Assembly (NCBI GenBank): GCA_001767455.1
Contig: MELC01000038.1
Location: 1-33,608 of the forward strand
Source: Acidobacteria bacterium RIFCSPLOWO2_12_FULL_66_21
Lineage (GTDB): Bacteria > Acidobacteriota > Vicinamibacteria > Vicinamibacterales > 2-12-FULL-66-21
Length of the DNA stretch: 33,608 nucleotides
Reading direction: 5' to 3'
Position numbers and translations under genes: made by a program. Shown here in pieces: positions 3,852 through 31,763 of this stretch (the stretch's first letter is position 1; each line of letters starts with the position of its first letter). The notes under the pieces are model-generated. The model was given only the letters and a program-made list of their open reading frames with translations. It was not told where the DNA came from and did not search any database.

Positions 3852-3859
3852 CTCAGTGA

Positions 3860-3932
3860 CCAGCTCCCAGTTCCCAGCTTCCTGCTTCTGACTGGAGGCT
3901 GGAAACTGGAAACTGGAAACTGGAAACTGGGC
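3860..3932. repeat. fold-back 7-bp repeat array (CCCAGTT / AACTGGG)
   Basis: The left part (about 3861-3882) has CCCAGTT and CCCAGCTT units; the right part (3894-3931) has four head-to-tail GGAAACT units ending AACTGGGC. The right part is an imperfect reverse complement of the left, so the 73 bp can fold into a hairpin with an 11-base loop. It fills the gap between two convergent genes, where a transcription stop would be expected, but there is no T-run. Confidence 0.75.
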
Positions 3933-6808: not shown

Positions 6809-6843
6809 GGTTCTCTAGAGGTTCTATGGGTTCTAAAGGTTCT
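6809..6843. repeat. GGTTCT repeat array overlapping a start codon
   Basis: GGTTCT occurs at 6809-6814, 6820-6825, 6829-6834 and 6838-6843 (periods 11, 9, 9). The array begins in the 26-bp gap after the first VWFA gene and continues into the second gene, where it encodes the first residues MGSKGS. The AGAGG at 6817-6821, made of repeat bases, is also the only plausible ribosome binding site, 4 bp before the ATG. It is the reverse complement of the AGAACC arrays at 1713 and 9061. Confidence 0.75.
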
Positions 6844-9024
6844 GTCGCGGCGGCGTTGCTTGGCCTGGCGAGTCTGGCGGCCGCGCAGGCGCAAACTCCG
6901 ACGCCCGCGCCGCGATTCCGCTCGGGCGTGGACCTGGTGCATCTCGACGTCTCGGTGCTCGACCGGAATCGCCGGCCGGTGCGCGGTCTGACCCCGGCGG
7001 ACTTCACCATTCTCGAGAACGGCAAGCCCCAGCAGATTGTGGCGTTCAACGCCGTGGACATCCCGGATCCCGAGCCGCCCTCTACCCCCTGGATTCGGGA
7101 CGTGGCGCCGGATGTCGGCACGAACGATGGGGTAGAAGAGCGCCGGCTGTTTCTCCTGCTGCTCGATGACGCCATGATTCAGTCGGACGTGCGCGCCGTG
7201 AACAACGTCCGCGACATCGCGCGCCGGGTGATCGATCGCCTGGGCCCCTCGGATCTTGCGGCGGTCATCTTCACACGCGACAACCAGCACTCCCAGGACT
7301 ACACGGCCGACCGCGCGCGGCTGCTGACCGCCTTGGACAAGTTCAGCGTCGGATTCCGGGACATGTCGCCTGTCACGCCCGACGACTTGTACTACCTCTA
7401 CTCAGTCGATGTCGTCGAGGCGGCGGTAGATACGCTGAGCACCATGCCGGATCGCCGCAAGGCGATCATCTACGTCGGCCAGGGAGTGCCGGTGGATCTC
7501 GAGCTGCTGGCGCCGCAGGCTGTCGGCATTCCGGAGGGAGGCGGGGAGTCCGCGCTCATGAAGCAGGGGCTCATGCAGCAACTGAAGAACCAGATGGAAA
7601 AGGCCTTTCAACGTGCCGCGCGCGCCAATGTGAACGTCTATACCGTCGATGCCTGCGGTCTGCGCGTGACGCCGGCGCCCCCTCCGCCCGGGCAGTCTCT
7701 CCTGGAGTATCACGCGCCGACGTGCGTCCCCGGCCTCGAAGTCGACTATCTGAAAACCGTCGCCGCGAACACGGGCGCGCGCGCGGTGACCGACACGAAC
7801 GACTTCGCGCCTGGCGTGACCGCGATATTCGAGGAGAACGCGTCGTACTATCTGATCGGGTATCAGTCCACTGACCAGAGGGCGGACGGAAGACTCCGGC
7901 GTATCGAGGTCCGCGTGAACAGGCCGGACGTCGAGGTGCGCACCCGCAACGGCTATCTGGCCGACGGACGAGACGCCGCGAAGCGCAAAGCGGCGCTCGC
8001 CGCCTCGCCTCTTGGCGCCGCGTTGGCCGGGGTCCTGCCGAAGAGCGATCTGCCGCTCCAGATGTCCGCCGTGCCGTTTGCCGTGCCGGGGCGCCGTGAG
8101 GCGGCCGTGGCAATCGTCCTCGGCGTCCGTCAGCCGATTCGGACCACGGAAGAACACGGAAACACGGTGTCAACCACGGAAGAACACGGAAACACGGTAT
8201 CAACCACGGAAGAACACGGAAACACACGGATCTCAACCACCGAAGAACACGGAAACGCACGGATATCAACCACGGAAGAACACGGAAACACACGGATATC
8301 AACCAGCGAAGAACACGGAAACGCACCGACCAGAACCACGGAAGAACACGGACGTACACGGACCAGTATGCAGACGTCAGGCGGGACGGTGGAGCGCGTG
8401 GACCTGCAGGTCAGCGCGTTCAACGTCAACGGGAAGGCGTTCGGCTCGACGAGACTGCAGGCGGATGTCGCGCTTCGACCAGATGCCAGCGGACTCGCGG
8501 AGTACGAGGTGCTCGCGCGGCTCGATCTCAAGCCAGGTCGATACCAGCTTCGCGTCGGCGCGAACCTCCGCAGCTTTTCGACCAGCGGCAGCCTCTATTG
8601 CGACGTTGACGTACCGGACTTCTCGTCGGCGCCAGTCTCGCTGTCCGGCCTCGTCCTGAGCGCGTCGCCCGGACCGGTAGTGGGATCCCGGGACGCGCTT
8701 CGGCCGATCCTCCCGGTCGTGCCCACCGCGCGGCGTGCTTTCACGTCAGGCCATCAGGTCTCAGCGTTCACGCGCGTCTATCAGGGGGGCAAGGCGGCGC
8801 TGGCGTCCGTTGCGGTGCGCGTGCGGCTTCGCAACGCGGCCAACGAGCTCGTGATGGACCGGCGCGAAGAGCTCGCAGCGGCACGGTTCACCACCACACG
8901 CTCGGCCGATGTCAGGGTGGAGGTGCCGGTGGCGCACCTGGCGCCCGGAGAGTATCTGCTCACGGTTGAAGCCGCAGCACGCACGACCGTCCACCGCAAT
9001 AGCCGATTTCAGATCACCCGCTAG
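6826..9024 (+). CDS. large VWFA-related secreted protein with in-frame repeat insert
   Basis: 732 residues. A signal peptide spans residues 1 to about 22 (VAAALLGLASLAAAQAQ). Residues about 30-80 repeat the beta domain of its neighbour (FRSGVDLVHLDVSVLDRNRR, LTPADFTILENGKPQQIV). Residues about 100-380 are a vWA-like domain, but the metal-site motif reads LLDDAMIQSD instead of DxSxS, so the classical MIDAS is not intact. Residues about 441-515 are seven units of TTEEHGN(T/A)xxS, encoded by 30-33 bp tandem DNA repeats. Residues about 520-732 form beta-rich domains (VDLQVSAFNVNGKAF, ALRPDASGLAEYEVLARLDL). Its N-terminus is encoded by another repeat. Likely envelope or secreted; function unknown. 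It may be co-transcribed with the upstream VWFA gene (26 bp gap). Confidence 0.9.
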   Translation: MGSKGSVAAALLGLASLAAAQAQTPTPAPRFRSGVDLVHLDVSVLDRNRRPVRGLTPADFTILENGKPQQIVAFNAVDIPDPEPPSTPWIRDVAPDVGTNDGVEERRLFLLLLDDAMIQSDVRAVNNVRDIARRVIDRLGPSDLAAVIFTRDNQHSQDYTADRARLLTALDKFSVGFRDMSPVTPDDLYYLYSVDVVEAAVDTLSTMPDRRKAIIYVGQGVPVDLELLAPQAVGIPEGGGESALMKQGLMQQLKNQMEKAFQRAARANVNVYTVDACGLRVTPAPPPPGQSLLEYHAPTCVPGLEVDYLKTVAANTGARAVTDTNDFAPGVTAIFEENASYYLIGYQSTDQRADGRLRRIEVRVNRPDVEVRTRNGYLADGRDAAKRKAALAASPLGAALAGVLPKSDLPLQMSAVPFAVPGRREAAVAIVLGVRQPIRTTEEHGNTVSTTEEHGNTVSTTEEHGNTRISTTEEHGNARISTTEEHGNTRISTSEEHGNAPTRTTEEHGRTRTSMQTSGGTVERVDLQVSAFNVNGKAFGSTRLQADVALRPDASGLAEYEVLARLDLKPGRYQLRVGANLRSFSTSGSLYCDVDVPDFSSAPVSLSGLVLSASPGPVVGSRDALRPILPVVPTARRAFTSGHQVSAFTRVYQGGKAALASVAVRVRLRNAANELVMDRREELAAARFTTTRSADVRVEVPVAHLAPGEYLLTVEAAARTTVHRNSRFQITR
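8146..8368 (+). repeat. seven tandem 30-33 bp units inside a coding sequence
   Basis: Seven consecutive units with the core ACCACGGAAGAACACGGAAA: two of 30 bp followed by five of 33 bp, ending near 8368. All lengths are multiples of three, so the frame is kept and each unit gives TTEEHGN plus 3-4 residues. Each unit is itself built from ACACGGAA-like pieces, the same short motif that forms the intergenic arrays at 28689-28793 and 29747-29916. Confidence 0.9.
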
Positions 9025-20369: not shown

Positions 20370-21401
20370 CTACTTCGACTCGAGCTTCGACTCGAGCGCG
20401 CGAAGCCGGTCCTCCAGCTCAGCCAGCGTCTTGCGGAGCTCCGGCAGCTTGCGGAAGACCACGGACGACTTCAGCCAGTCGCGGTTCGGGATCGCGGGGT
20501 AGCCGGAGACGAACGAACCCGGGTCGACACTGTTCGGAATGCCGGTCTGCGCGGTCGCGATCGTGCCTTTGCCGATCGTCAGGTGGCCAGCCACGCCGAC
20601 CTGGCCGGCAAGGGTGACGCCGTCCTCGATCACCGTGCTGCCGGCAATGCCGACCTGGCCCGCCAGCAGGACGTTTCGCCCCAGCGTGACGCCGTGCGCC
20701 ACCTGCACCAGGTTGTCGATCTTCGAGCCCGCGCCGATGCGGGTCTCGCCGACCGCGGGACGATCGATCGCGGCGTTCGCCCCGATCTCCACGTCGTCTT
20801 CGATCACGACGCCGCCGACCTGCGGGATCTTGTAGTGCGCGCCTTCGGGAGTCCGCGCGAACCCAAAGCCGTCGCTGCCGATGATCGCGCCGTCCTGGAT
20901 GATCACACGGTTGCCGATCCGCACGCGTTCGCGGACCGACGCGTGCGCGTGCACGACGCAGTCCTCCCCAATCTCCGCGCCGCGCCCGATGGTCACATGT
21001 GGATGGACCAGCGTGCGCGCGCCGACCCGCGCGCCTTCCCCAACGGCGGCGAACGGCCCGATCGACGCATCGGCCGCAATCGTGGCGGTCGTGTCCACGC
21101 TGGCCAGCCGATGGACGCCCGGCGGCGGACGCCAGAGGTCGGCGAACAGTTCCATGGCCTTCGCGAATGCCAGGTAGGGGTGGGGGCTCCGCAGTACGGC
21201 GCAGGGCGCGCCCTCCGCCAGTTCGCCCGCGATCACCGCGGAGGCGCGGGTCCGCGTCAGCTCCGCGTGGTACTTGGGATTGGCGAAGAAGGTCAGGTCC
21301 CCTTCGGCGGCGTCCTCGATCGCGGCGACGCGGCGGATCTCGATCTCGCCGTCTCCCTGCAGGCGGCAGTCCAGTCGTTCGGCAATCTCGCGGAGCTTCA
21401 A
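20370..21401 (-). CDS. lpxD: UDP-3-O-acylglucosamine N-acyltransferase LpxD
   Basis: 343 residues from a TTG at 21401 (reading [20 protein letters not shown]). LpxD adds the amide-linked acyl chain in lipid A synthesis. The N-terminal uridine-binding domain ([20 protein letters not shown]) is followed by a left-handed beta-helix of hexapeptide repeats ([38 protein letters not shown]) and the region [20 protein letters not shown] with the likely catalytic His at 236. The C-terminal helix ([20 protein letters not shown]) is typical. The frame is open to an ATG at 21467, but that stretch is translated fold-back repeat ([10 protein letters not shown]), so the TTG start is preferred; it has no clear ribosome site. 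The gene heads the row lpxD, M16, M16, lpxB. Confidence 0.93.
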
Positions 21402-21421
21402 CAGGGGGCAGTATAGAACCT

Positions 21422-21542
21422 CCAACGCCCAACTCCCAACTCCCAACGCCCAACGCCCAATTCCCAATCCCCAACTCCCAATTCCCAGTTTGGAAGTTGG
21501 AAGTTGGAAGTTGGAAGTTGGGAGTTGGGAGTTGGGAGTTTG
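21422..21542. repeat. fold-back 7-bp repeat array (CCCAACT / AGTTGGG)
   Basis: From 21428 nine head-to-tail 7-bp units (CCCAACT, CCCAACT, CCCAACG, CCCAACG, CCCAATT, CCCAATC, CCCAACT, CCCAATT, CCCAGTT) are followed at 21491 by seven units of the complementary type (four TGGAAGT, then three TGGGAGT). The two halves can pair into a long imperfect hairpin. It lies between the divergent lpxD and the Mit_KHE1-like gene, so it is not a terminator; the promoters of both genes would have to sit in or beside it. Confidence 0.85.
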
Positions 21543-22493: not shown

Positions 22494-22946
22494 ATGACTG
22501 CCCCACTCACCGACATTGAGCTGCTTCGCCGGCTGCTGCTTGCGGCCGGGCTTGGCGCCGCGATCGGACTCGAACGGGAACTGCGCCAGAAGAGCGCGGG
22601 CCTGCGCACCAACATGCTGATCGCCGTGGGTTCGGCGCTCTTCACGCTCCTGTCGGTGCAACTGGCTGCCGGCACCGGAGCGGACGTCACGCGGATTACC
22701 GCGCAGATCGTGACCGGCATCGGCTTCCTCGGCGCGGGCGCGATCCTGCGGACGCGTGACGGGGTGCGTGGGCTCACCACCGCCGCCACGGTCTGGGTCA
22801 ATGCCGCCGTGGGCATGGCGGCCGGCGGTGGCGAGTACCACCTGGCGCTCATCACCACCCTCGTCACGGTCGGCGTGCTGATCGTGCTGTCGCCGATCGA
22901 GGCGGCGCTCGATCGGCGGCTCTTCGGCCCACGCCGCGAAGGGTGA
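22494..22946 (+). CDS. MgtC/SapB family membrane protein
   Basis: 150 residues, with four or so hydrophobic helices. The family motifs are clear: GLGAAIGLERELRQKSAGLR, TNMLIAVGSALFTLLS, TGIGFLGAGAILR and GLTTAATVWVNAAVGMAAG. MgtC-type proteins sit in the inner membrane and are tied to Mg2+ limitation and, in some bacteria, ATP synthase control; this is the short form without the C-terminal ACT-like domain. The start at ATG 22494 (MTAPLTDIELL) fits; the frame is open 10 codons further. The gene ends 7 bp before the end of the convergent nuclease-like gene. The transported ion, if any, is unknown. Confidence 0.88.
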   Translation: MTAPLTDIELLRRLLLAAGLGAAIGLERELRQKSAGLRTNMLIAVGSALFTLLSVQLAAGTGADVTRITAQIVTGIGFLGAGAILRTRDGVRGLTTAATVWVNAAVGMAAGGGEYHLALITTLVTVGVLIVLSPIEAALDRRLFGPRREG

Positions 22947-28688: not shown

Positions 28689-28793
28689 TTACTACACGGA
28701 AAAACACGGAAGACCAGGGAGGACACCCACCAACACAGAGACACACGGAAGCGTTCCGTGTCCATCCGTGTTTGTCCGTGTGCTTCTGTGTTA
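28689..28793. repeat. fold-back ACACGGAA / TTCCGTGT repeat array
   Basis: The left part (28689-28749) has ACACGGAAAAACACGGAAG and degenerate units; the right part (28753-28793) is in the opposite orientation (TTCCGTGTCCATCCGTGTTT, then GTCCGTGTGCTTCTGTGTTAC). It lies just upstream of surE and at the end of the next membrane gene, whose TAA stop (28791-28793) is part of the terminal GTAACAC motif. Confidence 0.8.
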
Positions 28794-29746: not shown

Positions 29747-29916
29747 GTAACACGGAAACACGGATTACACGGAGGCACACGGAAACACGGAAGGACACGG
29801 ATTACACGGAGGCACACGGAAACACGGAAGGACACGGAGTACACGGAAGGACACGGAGTACACGGAAAGACGCGGAAAAGGGACTGCGCGGTGTTGTTCC
29901 GTGTTTTTCGGTGTTA
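29747..29916. repeat. 170-bp ACACGGAA repeat array with inverted ends
   Basis: The array is mostly ACACGGA-type units, including two perfect 37-bp tandem copies (29762-29798 and 29799-29835) and two about 19-bp copies after them. The left end reads GTAACACGGAAACACGG; the right end read on the other strand is GTAACACCGAAAAACACGG, so the array has matching inverted ends. It lies between the rpoZ start and the end of the downstream hsp20 gene, so any shared transcript must pass through it. Confidence 0.85.
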
Positions 29917-29918
29917 CG

Positions 29919-30368
29919 TCATTCCGACAGCTCCACCGGAATCTGGCGCGGTCGGGCTTCTTCGCGCATCGGCAGGGTGACGGTCAGGATGCCGTCGCGG
30001 TACTCCGCTTTCACCCGGCCGCTATCGACCGTGTGCGGCAAGGTAAAGGACCGGGAAAAGGTCCCGTGACTGCGTTCCAGCCGATGGTAGCGGTCCTCCG
30101 GGATCCCGTCTTCCCGGCGGCGCTCGCCGCGAATCGTGAGGGTGTTGTTCTCGACCGTCAGGTCGATGTGCTCGCGCTTCAGGCCGGGAAGTTCCGCCTT
30201 CAGCACGATCTCGCGTCCCTCCGACTCGTAGATGTCGACCGGCGGGAGCCATGTGCCACGGCTCGTGACATCTTCCTGCCCGCGTTCGTTCAGGTGGCCC
30301 CACATGCGGTTCATGCGGTCGTGCATGGCCGACAGCTCGCGCATGACGTCCCACGGATTACTTGCCAC
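29919..30368 (-). CDS. Hsp20/alpha-crystallin chaperone (distal)
   Basis: 149 residues. The alpha-crystallin domain spans about 40-140: PPVDIYESEGREIVLKAELP, VENNTLTIRGERR, TFSRSFTLPHTVDSGRVKAE and the YRDGILTVTLP strand. Small heat-shock proteins hold unfolding proteins without ATP. Start: GTG at 30368 (MASNPWDVMREL) has GGAGG 5 bp upstream; a GTG four codons earlier (30380) overlaps that ribosome site and is less likely. The N-terminal helix is short. It follows the other hsp20 with a hairpin-plus-T-run in between, so it may be expressed at a lower level by readthrough. Confidence 0.9.
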   Translation of the reverse strand: MASNPWDVMRELSAMHDRMNRMWGHLNERGQEDVTSRGTWLPPVDIYESEGREIVLKAELPGLKREHIDLTVENNTLTIRGERRREDGIPEDRYHRLERSHGTFSRSFTLPHTVDSGRVKAEYRDGILTVTLPMREEARPRQIPVELSE

Positions 30369-30387
30369 AAGGTCCTCCACTTTGAGC

Positions 30388-30431: not shown

Positions 30432-30863
30432 TTACTCGCCGACGGTAATCTGCTTCGGCTTCGCCTCTTCGCGCTGCGGCAACCGAATGGTCAGCACGCC
30501 GTCGCGATAGCTGGCGCTGATGCGGCCGGCGTCGACGGTATTGGGCAGCGTGAAAGAGCGGCTGAAGGCGCCGTACTGGCGCTCGATCCGGTGATAGCTG
30601 TCGCGACGCTTCTCGTCCTCGAATTTGCGCTCGCCCTTGAGCGTGAGCACGCCGTTCTCGAACGTCAGGTTGATGTCCTCGCGCTTCATGTCCGGCAGTT
30701 CGGCCTTGAGAACGACCTCGTGTTCGTCGTTCTCGAAGATGTCGACCGCCGGCATCCAGCCGCGTCCGAACGCTTCGCCGTAGAAGTCGTTGAACATGCG
30801 GTTGAGCCGGTCGACCTCCATCGAGGCAAGCTCGCGCGACGGTTCCCATCGAACAATAGCCAT
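30432..30863 (-). CDS. Hsp20/alpha-crystallin chaperone (proximal)
   Basis: 143 residues. ATG 30863 with AGGAGG 8 bp upstream. The alpha-crystallin domain spans about 35-140: MPAVDIFENDEHEVVLKAEL, FENGVLTLKGERKFE, YGAFSRSFTLPNTVDAGRIS, SYRDGVLTIRLPQREE. The short N-terminal arm (MAIVRWEPSRELASMEVDRL) is typical of bacterial class A Hsp20. It is followed by a second, related hsp20 after a terminator-like hairpin. It is preceded by an about 97-base leader with a second AGAGGAGG copy and a TTGACA promoter at 30967-30995. Confidence 0.95.
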   Translation of the reverse strand: MAIVRWEPSRELASMEVDRLNRMFNDFYGEAFGRGWMPAVDIFENDEHEVVLKAELPDMKREDINLTFENGVLTLKGERKFEDEKRRDSYHRIERQYGAFSRSFTLPNTVDAGRISASYRDGVLTIRLPQREEAKPKQITVGE

Positions 30864-31082: not shown

Positions 31083-31216
31083 TTCTGCACGAAGCGCACG
31101 AAGGCCACGAAGTGCACGAAGACTGTTTCTCTTTGTTTCTTCCCCAAGTAAAAGAAGCAGAAACCGAGGTCTCCGTCTTCGTGACCTTAGTGTTCTTCGT
31201 GGTCTTCGTGAGAAAG
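31083..31216. repeat. 134-bp fold-back CACGAAG / CTTCGTG repeat
   Basis: The left arm (31083-31123) carries four CACGAAG-type units; the right arm (31175-31216) is their inverted counterpart (GTCTTCGTGACC, then TTCTTCGTGGTCTTCGTGAG). The complement of the right arm matches the left arm over about 40 bases with a few differences. Inside, TTTCTCTTTGTTTCTTC and GAAGCAGAAACC continue the pairing. There is no obvious coding content. Confidence 0.85.
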
Positions 31217-31230
31217 AGCCGTCGGCGCGT

Positions 31231-31300
31231 GGGGTTCGGGGTTTGGGGTTCGGGGTTTGGGGTTTGGGGTTTGGGAGTTGGGAGTTGGGAGTTGGAGTGT
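31231..31300 (+). repeat. ten 7-bp G-rich units, G-quadruplex candidate
   Basis: Head-to-tail units GGGGTTC, GGGGTTT, GGGGTTC, three GGGGTTT, three GGGAGTT, then GGAGTGT. Nine runs of at least three Gs separated by three or four bases on the plus strand meet the usual G-quadruplex pattern many times over. The array is in one orientation only, unlike the fold-backs, and ends about 25 bp before the predicted start of the plus-strand Hsp20-like gene. Confidence 0.85.
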
Positions 31301-31325
31301 GCCCTTCGTGTGTAAGATAGCGATC

Positions 31326-31763
31326 GTGGGCCGCATCTTCCACGAACGCCGCGACATGGGCGACGACCTCCGGCGCCTGCTCGATCTCCTTGACGAGGGC
31401 CCGCGTTCCACCGGCACCGCCGGCGAATGCACCCCGCCGTTCGATCTGAGTGAAACCGACGGCGCGCTCGAGCTCGTCATGGATCTGCCGGGTGTCCCCG
31501 CCGATTCGATTCAGATTGTCTTCGCCCGAAACACGCTCGTCATCGCGGGCCAGAAGCTGCCGTCGGCGTGCGAACATCGCGACGCCGCCTTTCACCTCGC
31601 GGAGCGGGCGTTCGGGCGCTTCGCCCGCGCCGTGCGCCTCACGGGCGCGTTCGACGCGGGGCGCGCCGAGGCCAGGCTCGGCGGCGGCGAGCTGCGCGTG
31701 GTGCTGCCGCGCATCGACGACCGGCGCGGTGCCGAAATCCGCATCCCGGTCCGGACCGACTAA
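31326..31763 (+). CDS. divergent alpha-crystallin (Hsp20-like) protein
   Basis: 145 residues from a GTG at 31326 (a later ATG at 31356 gives 135 residues). The alpha-crystallin pattern is present but diverged: PPFDLSETDGALELVMDLPG (equivalent to VDIYE..LKAELPG), VFARNTLVIAGQKL, FGRFARAVRLTGAFDAGRAE and LGGGELRVVLPRIDDRR. Its family assignment is firm, but it is less similar to the two hsp20 genes nearby than they are to each other. The open frame upstream of 31326 is a G-rich repeat in translation (GFGVWELGVGSW) and is not real. Its stop is directly followed by the GTG start of the phosphodiesterase gene, so it heads an operon with ymdB and xseA. Confidence 0.8.
   Translation: MGRIFHERRDMGDDLRRLLDLLDEGPRSTGTAGECTPPFDLSETDGALELVMDLPGVPADSIQIVFARNTLVIAGQKLPSACEHRDAAFHLAERAFGRFARAVRLTGAFDAGRAEARLGGGELRVVLPRIDDRRGAEIRIPVRTD

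Follow-up and report, generated by a model that had tools for sequence, protein, structure and literature searches.

A 134-bp CACGAAG fold-back between Hsp20 genes: probably a gene-less representative of tiny mobile cassettes with mirrored unit-array ends

The window analysed here is the whole stretch of DNA from contig C38 (positions 1-33608, 33,608 nt) of a 6.48-Mb genome in 91 contigs, referred to below as the host genome. At 31083-31216 it contains a palindromic element that is placed among genes of the Hsp20 family. Two minus-strand Hsp20 genes are found on one side of it, and on the other side a plus-strand Hsp20-like gene followed by a YmdB gene. The features of the window, together with gene-less copies found elsewhere in the host, are given in Table 1, where C and L numbers denote contigs and sequence stretches; G numbers in the text denote genomes.

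Table 1. Positions of the fold-back at 31083, its neighbours, other repeats of the window and gene-less copies of host IVP units.
Feature	Position	Strand	Remarks
Left arm	31088..31123	+	four CACGAAG units, two-base spacers
Loop	31124..31174		AT-rich inner hairpin, no gene
Right arm	31175..31210	-	CTTCGTG-type units, three exact and one degenerate (CTTAGTG)
Second Hsp20 gene	29922..30380	-
Hsp20 gene	30435..30863	-	left of the fold-back
Direct heptamer array, TGGGGTT / TTGGGAG	31230..31295	+	adjoins the fold-back; itself no fold-back
Hsp20-like ORF	31257..31760	+	right of the fold-back; nominal TTG start within the heptamer array
Gene-less fold-back, heptamer CCAG[CT]T[CT] / ACTGGAA	3854..3922		score 43; 0/1000 Markov controls
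Gene-less fold-back, heptamer CCAACTC inward / TTGGAAG	21422..21540		score 100 (21424-21540); 0/1000 Markov controls
Weaker fold-back, ACACGGA / TCCGTGT units	28720..28784		motif type as at 31083; score 36; 4/1000 controls
Mainly direct ACACGGA array, short inverted end	29750..29915		direct part 29750-29876
Gene-less copies, CCAG[CT]TT type (contig C65 IVP unit)	window 3854-3922, L056:18942, L060:10020, L062:11807		by eye
Gene-less copies, CCAAACT type	L056:164, L069:1007, L069:12199		by eye
Gene-less copies, TCGTGGC type	L051:1452		by eye

The element is a genuine fold-back, 134 bp in length, with two arms of 36 nt that are 81% complementary and stand 51 nt apart. When it folds, the heptamers are paired, the two-base spacers are mainly unpaired, and an AT-rich inner stem extends the pairing inward. 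As single-stranded DNA it has a folding energy of -31.7 kcal/mol (z -5.98), which none of 200 shuffled sequences equalled, and its inverted-repeat score of 50 was reached by none of 1000 Markov controls. These results bear out the original prediction of a fold-back at this place, including the continued pairing of its inner segments, while the description of the arms as about 40 bases long with few differences was slightly generous. A search of the window against Rfam gave nothing at gathering thresholds, and a promoter and terminator scan added nothing decisive.

Five fold-backs with unrelated units of 7-8 bp had been claimed in these 33 kb. Those at 3854, 21424 and 31083 are clear and the one at 28720 is weaker, but that at 29747 is mainly a direct array, whose inverted end (29860-29914) is weak (score 26, reached by 25 of 1000 Markov controls). 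Concerning the units, the repeats at 3860 and 21422 are indeed pure heptamers, whereas those at 28689, 29747 and 31083 are of one motif type, CACGGA or CACGAAG plus a spacer. A further CACGGA array, at 8143-8362, lies in frame within the ORF at 6826-9024 and encodes 11-residue repeats of the TTEEHGNTRIS type; the protein has no Pfam match at E 0.001. The heptamer arrays at 21422-21487 and 31257-31295 overlap the nominal starts of the LpxD ORF (20370-21467, minus strand) and of the Hsp20-like ORF (31257), respectively, and the mechanically assigned starts of both ORFs are therefore probably too long.

We have also sampled fold-backs irrespective of their unit, using twenty 20-kb host stretches picked by position plus the window, 433.6 kb altogether. 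There were 36 inverted repeats scoring at least 50, as compared to 2 in the Markov control; two of the 36 are N runs, and the comparison with the control includes N. Among the 59 N-free fold-backs scoring at least 44, 24 are tandem, with a period of 7 in 19 cases and of 8 in three; the 31083 element falls slightly below the tandem cut in this sample. The unit types include CCAACTC, CCAGTTT, CCAAACT, GCAGCTG, GTGAATT and TCGTGGC. Fold-back tandem repeats are thus common in this position-chosen sample of the host genome: the arrays are not rare outside the window, and their arms do not differ as much as unrelated repeats do, so that the claim survived on both points.

We now turn to the CACGAAG family itself. 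The two-unit pattern CACGAAGNNCACGAAG has 152 matches in the host genome (83 + 69, partly overlapping), compared to 3 (0 + 3) for the backward control. Among the 100 places listed for CACGAAGNNCACGAAG, neighbours on opposite strands within 400 bp form 15 convergent pairs and no divergent one. The larger copies that were fetched are concentric palindromes, in which the outer arrays enclose paired segments, then a pair of side hairpins and, in the centre, a long hairpin. With a 270-bp element as the query, 96 genome matches were obtained, 21 of them at 103 bits or more (73-100% identity), and eight of these 21 (the query among them) extend over almost the whole element. At C24:23-530, C5:53502-53756 and C4:23867-24138 of the host, array-holding stretches of roughly 110-130 bp are themselves repeated in tandem. 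Rfam gave one match over 17 loci, a piece of a group II intron (RF02003) at L046:1356-1501 (host C4), beside or within a CACGAAG element. CACGAAG arrays were also seen near the first bases of host contigs C24, C45, C55, C64 and C89. This position at contig ends suggests that the assembly breaks at CACGAAG elements, and a parent gene could be hidden in the gaps.

Outside the host, a fold-back with at least two exact units per arm was found in at least 113 GTDB genome stretches from several phyla. The record titles among the matches listed name Acidobacteria, Deltaproteobacteria, Gammaproteobacteria such as Methylobacter, Planctomycetota, Verrucomicrobiota, Chloroflexi, Gemmatimonadetes and others. 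The fold-back is also present in 15 IMG/VR stretches (L184-L198), which may be true viruses or pieces of host DNA, and among the relatives of the host the CACGAAG triple array is patchy (8 of 59). We compared 130 short CACGAAG fold-backs, in which the search pattern requires exact heptamers. Facing two-base spacers are complementary throughout in 36 of them, where 19.4 are expected and none of 2000 shuffles came as high. This excess reflects some arm copying or a recent origin of the fold-backs, though most spacers differ. Because the heptamer recurs across phyla while most facing spacers differ, CACGAAG looks like a constrained recognition sequence rather than a recently copied unit.

That arrays of this kind accompany genes for GxxExxY proteins (PF13366, PDDEXK_3) and for four-helix-bundle/23S-IVP proteins (PF05635) was put to the test. 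GxxExxY and IVP genes were sought in the 128 pattern-match stretches (L071-L198, 887 kb), and 0 of either were found; since neither gene accompanies these fold-backs within the stretches, the association was tested from the gene side. An example is relative G036, in which convergent CACGAAG arrays at 22639 and 23284 bracket a GxxExxY gene (C4:22767-23114).

In the flank test, the 450 bp upstream of each gene were aligned with the inverse of the 450 bp downstream, and the left side of one locus against the right side of another served as the control. The arrays are tied to both gene families: 49 of 57 GxxExxY loci and 71 of 77 IVP loci exceed the cross-locus 95% point, orthologous loci among them not being independent. 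For GxxExxY, the 95% point is exceeded by 23 of 29 loci in the order and by 26 of 28 in chosen genomes of other groups, and the 99% point by 21 and 22; the corresponding figures for IVP are 48 of 49 and 23 of 28, and 39 and 20. The 99% figures are the safer ones, because random 315-bp windows reach the IVP 95% point (27) in about 10% of cases, and the 99% points in 2-5 of 1000. The profile models recovered the gene in 60/60 GxxExxY and 78/80 IVP loci. Three loci of each set were left out, the GxxExxY ones for a flank below 200 bp and the IVP ones for lack of an HMM match (two) or a short flank (one). L256 and L258 are the same loci as L264 and L265, and L350 and L353, second copies of one place, were kept here and dropped from the protein tree and from the count of unit against identity described below.

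The two gene families also go with different periods. Among loci with clear repeats, IVP cassettes have a period of 7 in 47 of 64 cases and of 8 in 12 of 64, and GxxExxY cassettes have a period of 8 to 10 in 25 of 27, with cores such as CACGAAG, CACAGAG and CGCAGAG. Twenty genomes bearing a CACGAAG fold-back, hand-picked for spread from the GTDB stretches mentioned above (at least 113), contain GxxExxY in 18 cases and IVP in 17, compared to 21 and 41 of 59 relatives; GxxExxY is missing from two of the twenty. Within the relatives alone, GxxExxY occurs in 5 of the 8 genomes with CACGAAG triple arrays and in 16 of the other 51, which is not significant (Fisher 0.12). By sequence, the IVP protein matches PDB 2gsc, a Xanthomonas campestris protein (XCC0516), and no solved relative of GxxExxY was found by sequence search.

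On plasmids, 12 of 14 loci exceed the 95% point. The 14 were chosen from 32 matches, 12 being annotated as 'four helix bundle', 'S23 ribosomal' or 'GxxExxY' and two lying in an unannotated record. Examples above the 95% point are the cassettes flanked by cas6 and cas4, by two ribonucleotide reductase genes, and by fabD and fabG, and one of the two below it stands between cas10 and a cmr3-type gene. IVP genes are found between CRISPR cas genes in three cyanobacterial plasmids (L388, L394, L397).

Gene-less fold-backs that carry the unit of a resident cassette are present in the host. Its genome has four PF05635 matches, of which that on C42 is below the Pfam cut-off. No fold-back was seen at the locus close to the C61 end (score 16, short right flank), and the other three have inverted arrays of the CCAG[CT]TT, CCAAACT and TCGTGGC types. 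All three units recur, as matched by eye, in gene-less fold-backs of the window or the sample (Table 1). One of these is the fold-back at 3854-3922, which shares its unit with the IVP cassette on C65.

Exact 7-mer arrays (at least three copies) are absent from the sampled genomes that have no IVP gene: there are 0 in 497 kb from 17 such genomes and 20 in 600 kb from 21 IVP-bearing ones, where they occur in 8 of the 21 (Fisher by genome 0.0047, phylogeny uncorrected). Control arrays of period 5 (1 vs 2) and period 6 (4 vs 2, IVP-less vs IVP-bearing), counted in the same stretches, hardly differ between the two groups. The sample covers 17 of the 18 IVP-zero genomes and 21 of the 41 IVP-bearing relatives, as first contigs or fixed places that were not chosen by content, and the stretches themselves contain no IVP gene. 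Genomes with zero IVP are concentrated in certain families, and neither group has arrays in families f6 and f7.

Filled and empty versions of the same site are found in related plasmids. In Nostoc, an IVP cassette with the unit TCAGGAG/TCAGAAG separates two genes in L402, L403 and L406. L404, L405, L407 and L408 have an empty site, and L409 an unrelated small ORF instead. At the adjoining gene boundary, L390 has another cassette (unit GGGGAAA), and this boundary is empty in the same four plasmids (L404, L405, L407, L408). A third Nostoc site (N1) has a GGGAACA cassette in L393 and L410 and none in L411 and L412, and at this site L413 has a gene-less fold-back with the same left end as the cassette; the insertion here is not clean, since a further 40 nt or so also differ. 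Finally, the cassette that L389 has between its reductase genes is missing from Calothrix L414 (85% identity). The short direct repeats at the insertion ends are inconsistent in the three Nostoc cases (TTCTA, ATG and at most 1 base), so that they show no target duplication of fixed length, which is unlike a classic transposase. The IVP gene of the cassette in L406 is interrupted by a 181-bp gene-less fold-back (667-847) with that cassette's own unit; the gene is intact in L403. Loss of the gene is seen at the glmS-uvrD site discussed next, where G061 retains only the IVP gene start between the arms and G060 nothing.

Orthologous cassettes often differ in their unit, and they do so in both arms. 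Species of genus g12 have IVP cassettes at the same sites, with alignable flanks (pieces about 71-90% identical in the pairs compared). At the glmS-uvrD site, G027 has the heptamer GGCAGTC, G014 and G037 have CGGCCTT, G060 has one resembling GGGTGCT and G061 has GGGAATC, the arm units of the latter two being matched by eye. The arm scores at this site are 46, 56, 30, 26 and 33; that of G060 (26) is under the 95% point of 27, and its arms agree loosely. In G046 the same site (L269 2200-2300) has another GC-rich palindrome, of GGCCGCCTCGGCGAGGCGGCCCTACC type, and by eye no clear heptamer cassette.

IVP proteins that share a site fall into one supported clade in five cases (A 99/86, B 99/95, C 99/96, D 99/91, H 100/100); the clade of site E is weaker (82/88), and that of site G takes in a third locus from elsewhere. 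Site-mates that are 69-86% identical have the same or a close unit, those at 49-58% have a different one, and the single pair at 61% has one mismatch. For 45 IVP loci with a clean period of 7, the fraction of protein pairs that share the unit is 4/5 at 65% identity or more, then 3/8, 15/144 and 23/378, and 9/455 below 35%. In 41 of 44 IVP loci the left unit is within one mismatch of the right one, and at least 27 units are distinct; the units of some loci (e.g. L246, L247, L251, L291 and L293) are not clean repeats. The concerted change of the two arms is what slippage combined with template switching between the arms would be expected to give, and some of the changes at orthologous sites could be replacements by a related cassette at the same place.

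The original prediction saw in the shared architecture and the changing sequence a single mechanism that writes new units. This idea is partly supported. In its favour, the units often differ between species at orthologous sites, with both arms agreeing within a species. On the other hand, many of the arrays are the ends of cassettes of at least two types that are tied to different genes, and CACGAAG recurs across phyla, its facing spacers matching in only 36 of 130 cases against 19.4 expected. We also looked for a sign of selection on the RNA strand. On the gene strand, G-U and A-C oppositions in the arms number 114 and 85 for IVP (p 0.047) and 67 and 81 for GxxExxY (p 0.29); there is no clear G-U excess and no clear signal of RNA-strand selection.

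On the basis of these results, we propose, with a probability of about 0.7, that the 31083 element belongs to a class of tiny mobile cassettes with mirrored unit-array ends, of which it would be a gene-less, MITE-like representative. It resembles a MITE in being short, in having terminal inverted repeats and no gene, and in being present in many copies. It also has the inverted array with a period of about 9 nt and a CACGAAG core that characterizes the GxxExxY type, and it is filed as a gene-less member of that type by motif and architecture only: there is no GxxExxY gene between its arms, and a PF13366 profile search of the host genome gave 0 matches. The fold-backs of the window look like gene-less members of two cassette types.

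The way in which such cassettes may work can be outlined as follows. Each end is an array of short units, mostly of 7 or about 9 bases, and the two ends are inverted copies, such that the strand folds back. Different cassettes have different units, with both ends of one cassette usually alike. Fuller members have one small gene in the loop, namely GxxExxY (PDDEXK_3 nuclease family) for the type with approximate nonamers, made up of core and spacer, and the IVP/S23 'four helix bundle' gene for the heptamer type. The encoded protein would recognise its own array or the hairpin that this forms, and would promote the copying or insertion of any DNA with matching ends, gene-less copies in trans included; both the enzyme and the intermediate of this movement are ones that we infer. 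Slippage may then alter an array, template switching between the arms may carry the change to the other arm, and protein and unit would subsequently diverge together.

A more far-reaching version, which we give less than even odds and put forward tentatively, is that the IVP/S23 and GxxExxY genes constitute an unrecognised, phylum-crossing class of one-gene mobile elements. Each protein would read its own array, move gene-less copies of the same unit in trans, and drive or follow the concerted rewriting of the two arms. Protein and repeat would then diversify in step, as a lock with its key, and it would be the protein, not polymerase slippage, that sets the 7-base period.

It is important to compare the cassette interpretation with explanations that involve no mobile element. 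Ordinary replication errors, in which slippage and quasi-palindrome template switching make and tend fold-backs anywhere, would account for the agreement of the arms within a locus (41 of 44 IVP loci within one mismatch) and for the lack of a strong bias of G-U over A-C, as expected from a process at the DNA level; template switching is described as able to create and maintain hairpins in the portion of PMC8794818 that deals with it. However, errors of this kind do not explain why the arrays are tied to two gene families, why the sampled genomes have period-7 arrays only when they also have IVP genes (none in 497 kb without IVP, 20 in 600 kb with it), or why CACGAAG recurs across phyla with its spacers mostly free. 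They are disfavoured also by the filled and, in particular, the empty sites, and we consider replication errors alone to be unlikely. Another option is that the hairpins are selected as RNA or DNA structures at gene ends, as terminators, mRNA stabilisers or G-quadruplex switches, with the small genes hitch-hiking. The location of cassettes directly at stop and start codons (glmS-uvrD, fabD-fabG, nrdB-nrdA, cas genes) fits with this, and the Xanthomonas repeats of GGGAATC type are, in the part of PMC4692102 concerned with their expression and folding, mostly transcribed and form quadruplexes in vitro. Yet the window has no Rfam match at gathering thresholds, the G-U bias is weak or absent, one fold-back is inserted into the IVP reading frame itself, and the same place is empty in relatives. 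This makes selected hairpins quite an unlikely explanation.

Two known kinds of enzyme were considered as drivers. In REPIN-like elements, a parent gene is accompanied by matching gene-less copies, which is the pattern seen here, and the host genome has three matches to Y1_Tnp, the REP-type family of the RAYT transposase, although the best is only 3.0e-7. Of five Y1_Tnp loci, two have inverted flanks and none has heptamer arrays, and the arrays instead bracket IVP and GxxExxY genes, so that movement by RAYT appears very improbable. Writing of the units by a reverse transcriptase, of retron, DGR or telomerase-like kind, is an even fainter prospect. Here IVP would act like the DGR accessory protein Avd, which we take it to resemble, and several of the heptamers are G-rich; against this, the RVT_1 profile has no match in the host genome, and no reverse transcriptase is annotated within the annotated plasmid stretches. 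Reverse transcriptase and REP-associated enzymes, both of which had been suggested at the outset as things to look for, are accordingly rejected as drivers.

The cassettes proposed here can be compared with several known systems, the closest being the intervening sequences (IVS) of 23S rRNA, followed by the heptameric repeats of Xanthomonas. The Coxiella burnetii 23S rRNA IVS has terminal inverted repeats and an S23p ORF, preceded by three tandem heptamers (GACAGAT) whose copy number varies between strains, and it is called selfish in the relevant part of the account (PMC4990558). The likeness thus lies in an S23/IVP gene within the loop of a terminal inverted repeat, with heptamers just upstream of the ORF; the difference, from the same part of that account, is that the IVS resides in 23S rRNA and is cut by RNase III (PMC4990558). 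The cassettes, in contrast, are located between protein genes of chromosomes and plasmids, have arrays on both sides and have many gene-less copies. The 31083 element is between Hsp20 genes and not in 23S rRNA, and its 51-nt loop has no S23p ORF, although such an ORF is present in the gene-bearing cassettes.

For Xanthomonas, Rehm et al. (2015, PMC4692102) report heptameric G-rich repeats (GGGAATC), with 70 convergent pairs in Xcc and 75 in Xac; most of the repeats occupy corresponding places in the two species, and they vary in length and sequence. In the passages devoted to them they are discussed as quadruplex repeats and stated to be generally not found with mobile elements, and the terms 'S23', 'bundle', '23S' and 'intervening' are absent from the main text (PMC4692102). 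As far as that text describes them, the heptamers of Xanthomonas and Nostoc resemble the present ones in being arrays between genes and in forming convergent pairs, and differ in having one G-rich unit type (PMC4692102). The 31083 element is convergent too, but it has a 9-nt period and is not G-rich; the fold-back at 21422-21540 fits better. The same paper cites heptanucleotide repeats of Calothrix (PMC4692102). These are likewise 7-base tandem units in cyanobacteria, where IVP cassettes also occur. They go by the name STRR, and have been described as arrays and are not known as cassette ends.

REPIN/RAYT systems and MITEs resemble the cassettes as small gene-less inverted-repeat elements with a gene-bearing relative. 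They involve other gene families, however, and the cassette ends are tandem arrays with a changing unit. Quasi-palindrome template switching, as treated in the pertinent part of PMC8794818, is a likely way for both arms to change together, but it is a mutational process and not an element. In the open literature, among the matches listed, we found nothing beyond the Coxiella heptamers that links heptamer fold-backs to IVP or GxxExxY genes, and the GxxExxY-type and IVP-type heptamer cassettes are classes proposed here. They link three loose ends, namely the excess of intergenic heptamers in bacteria, the S23/IVP proteins of unknown role and the widespread GxxExxY family. The origin of the heptamer arrays and the role of S23/IVP become directly testable, and sites that are orthologous but differ in unit provide a natural set of cases in which to study the joint change of the two arms of a palindrome. 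With respect to what is already known, the finding links the IVS with the heptamers of Rehm et al., and extends them by the GxxExxY type, by sites that are empty in relatives, by gene-less copies matching resident cassettes and by the concerted change of the arms.
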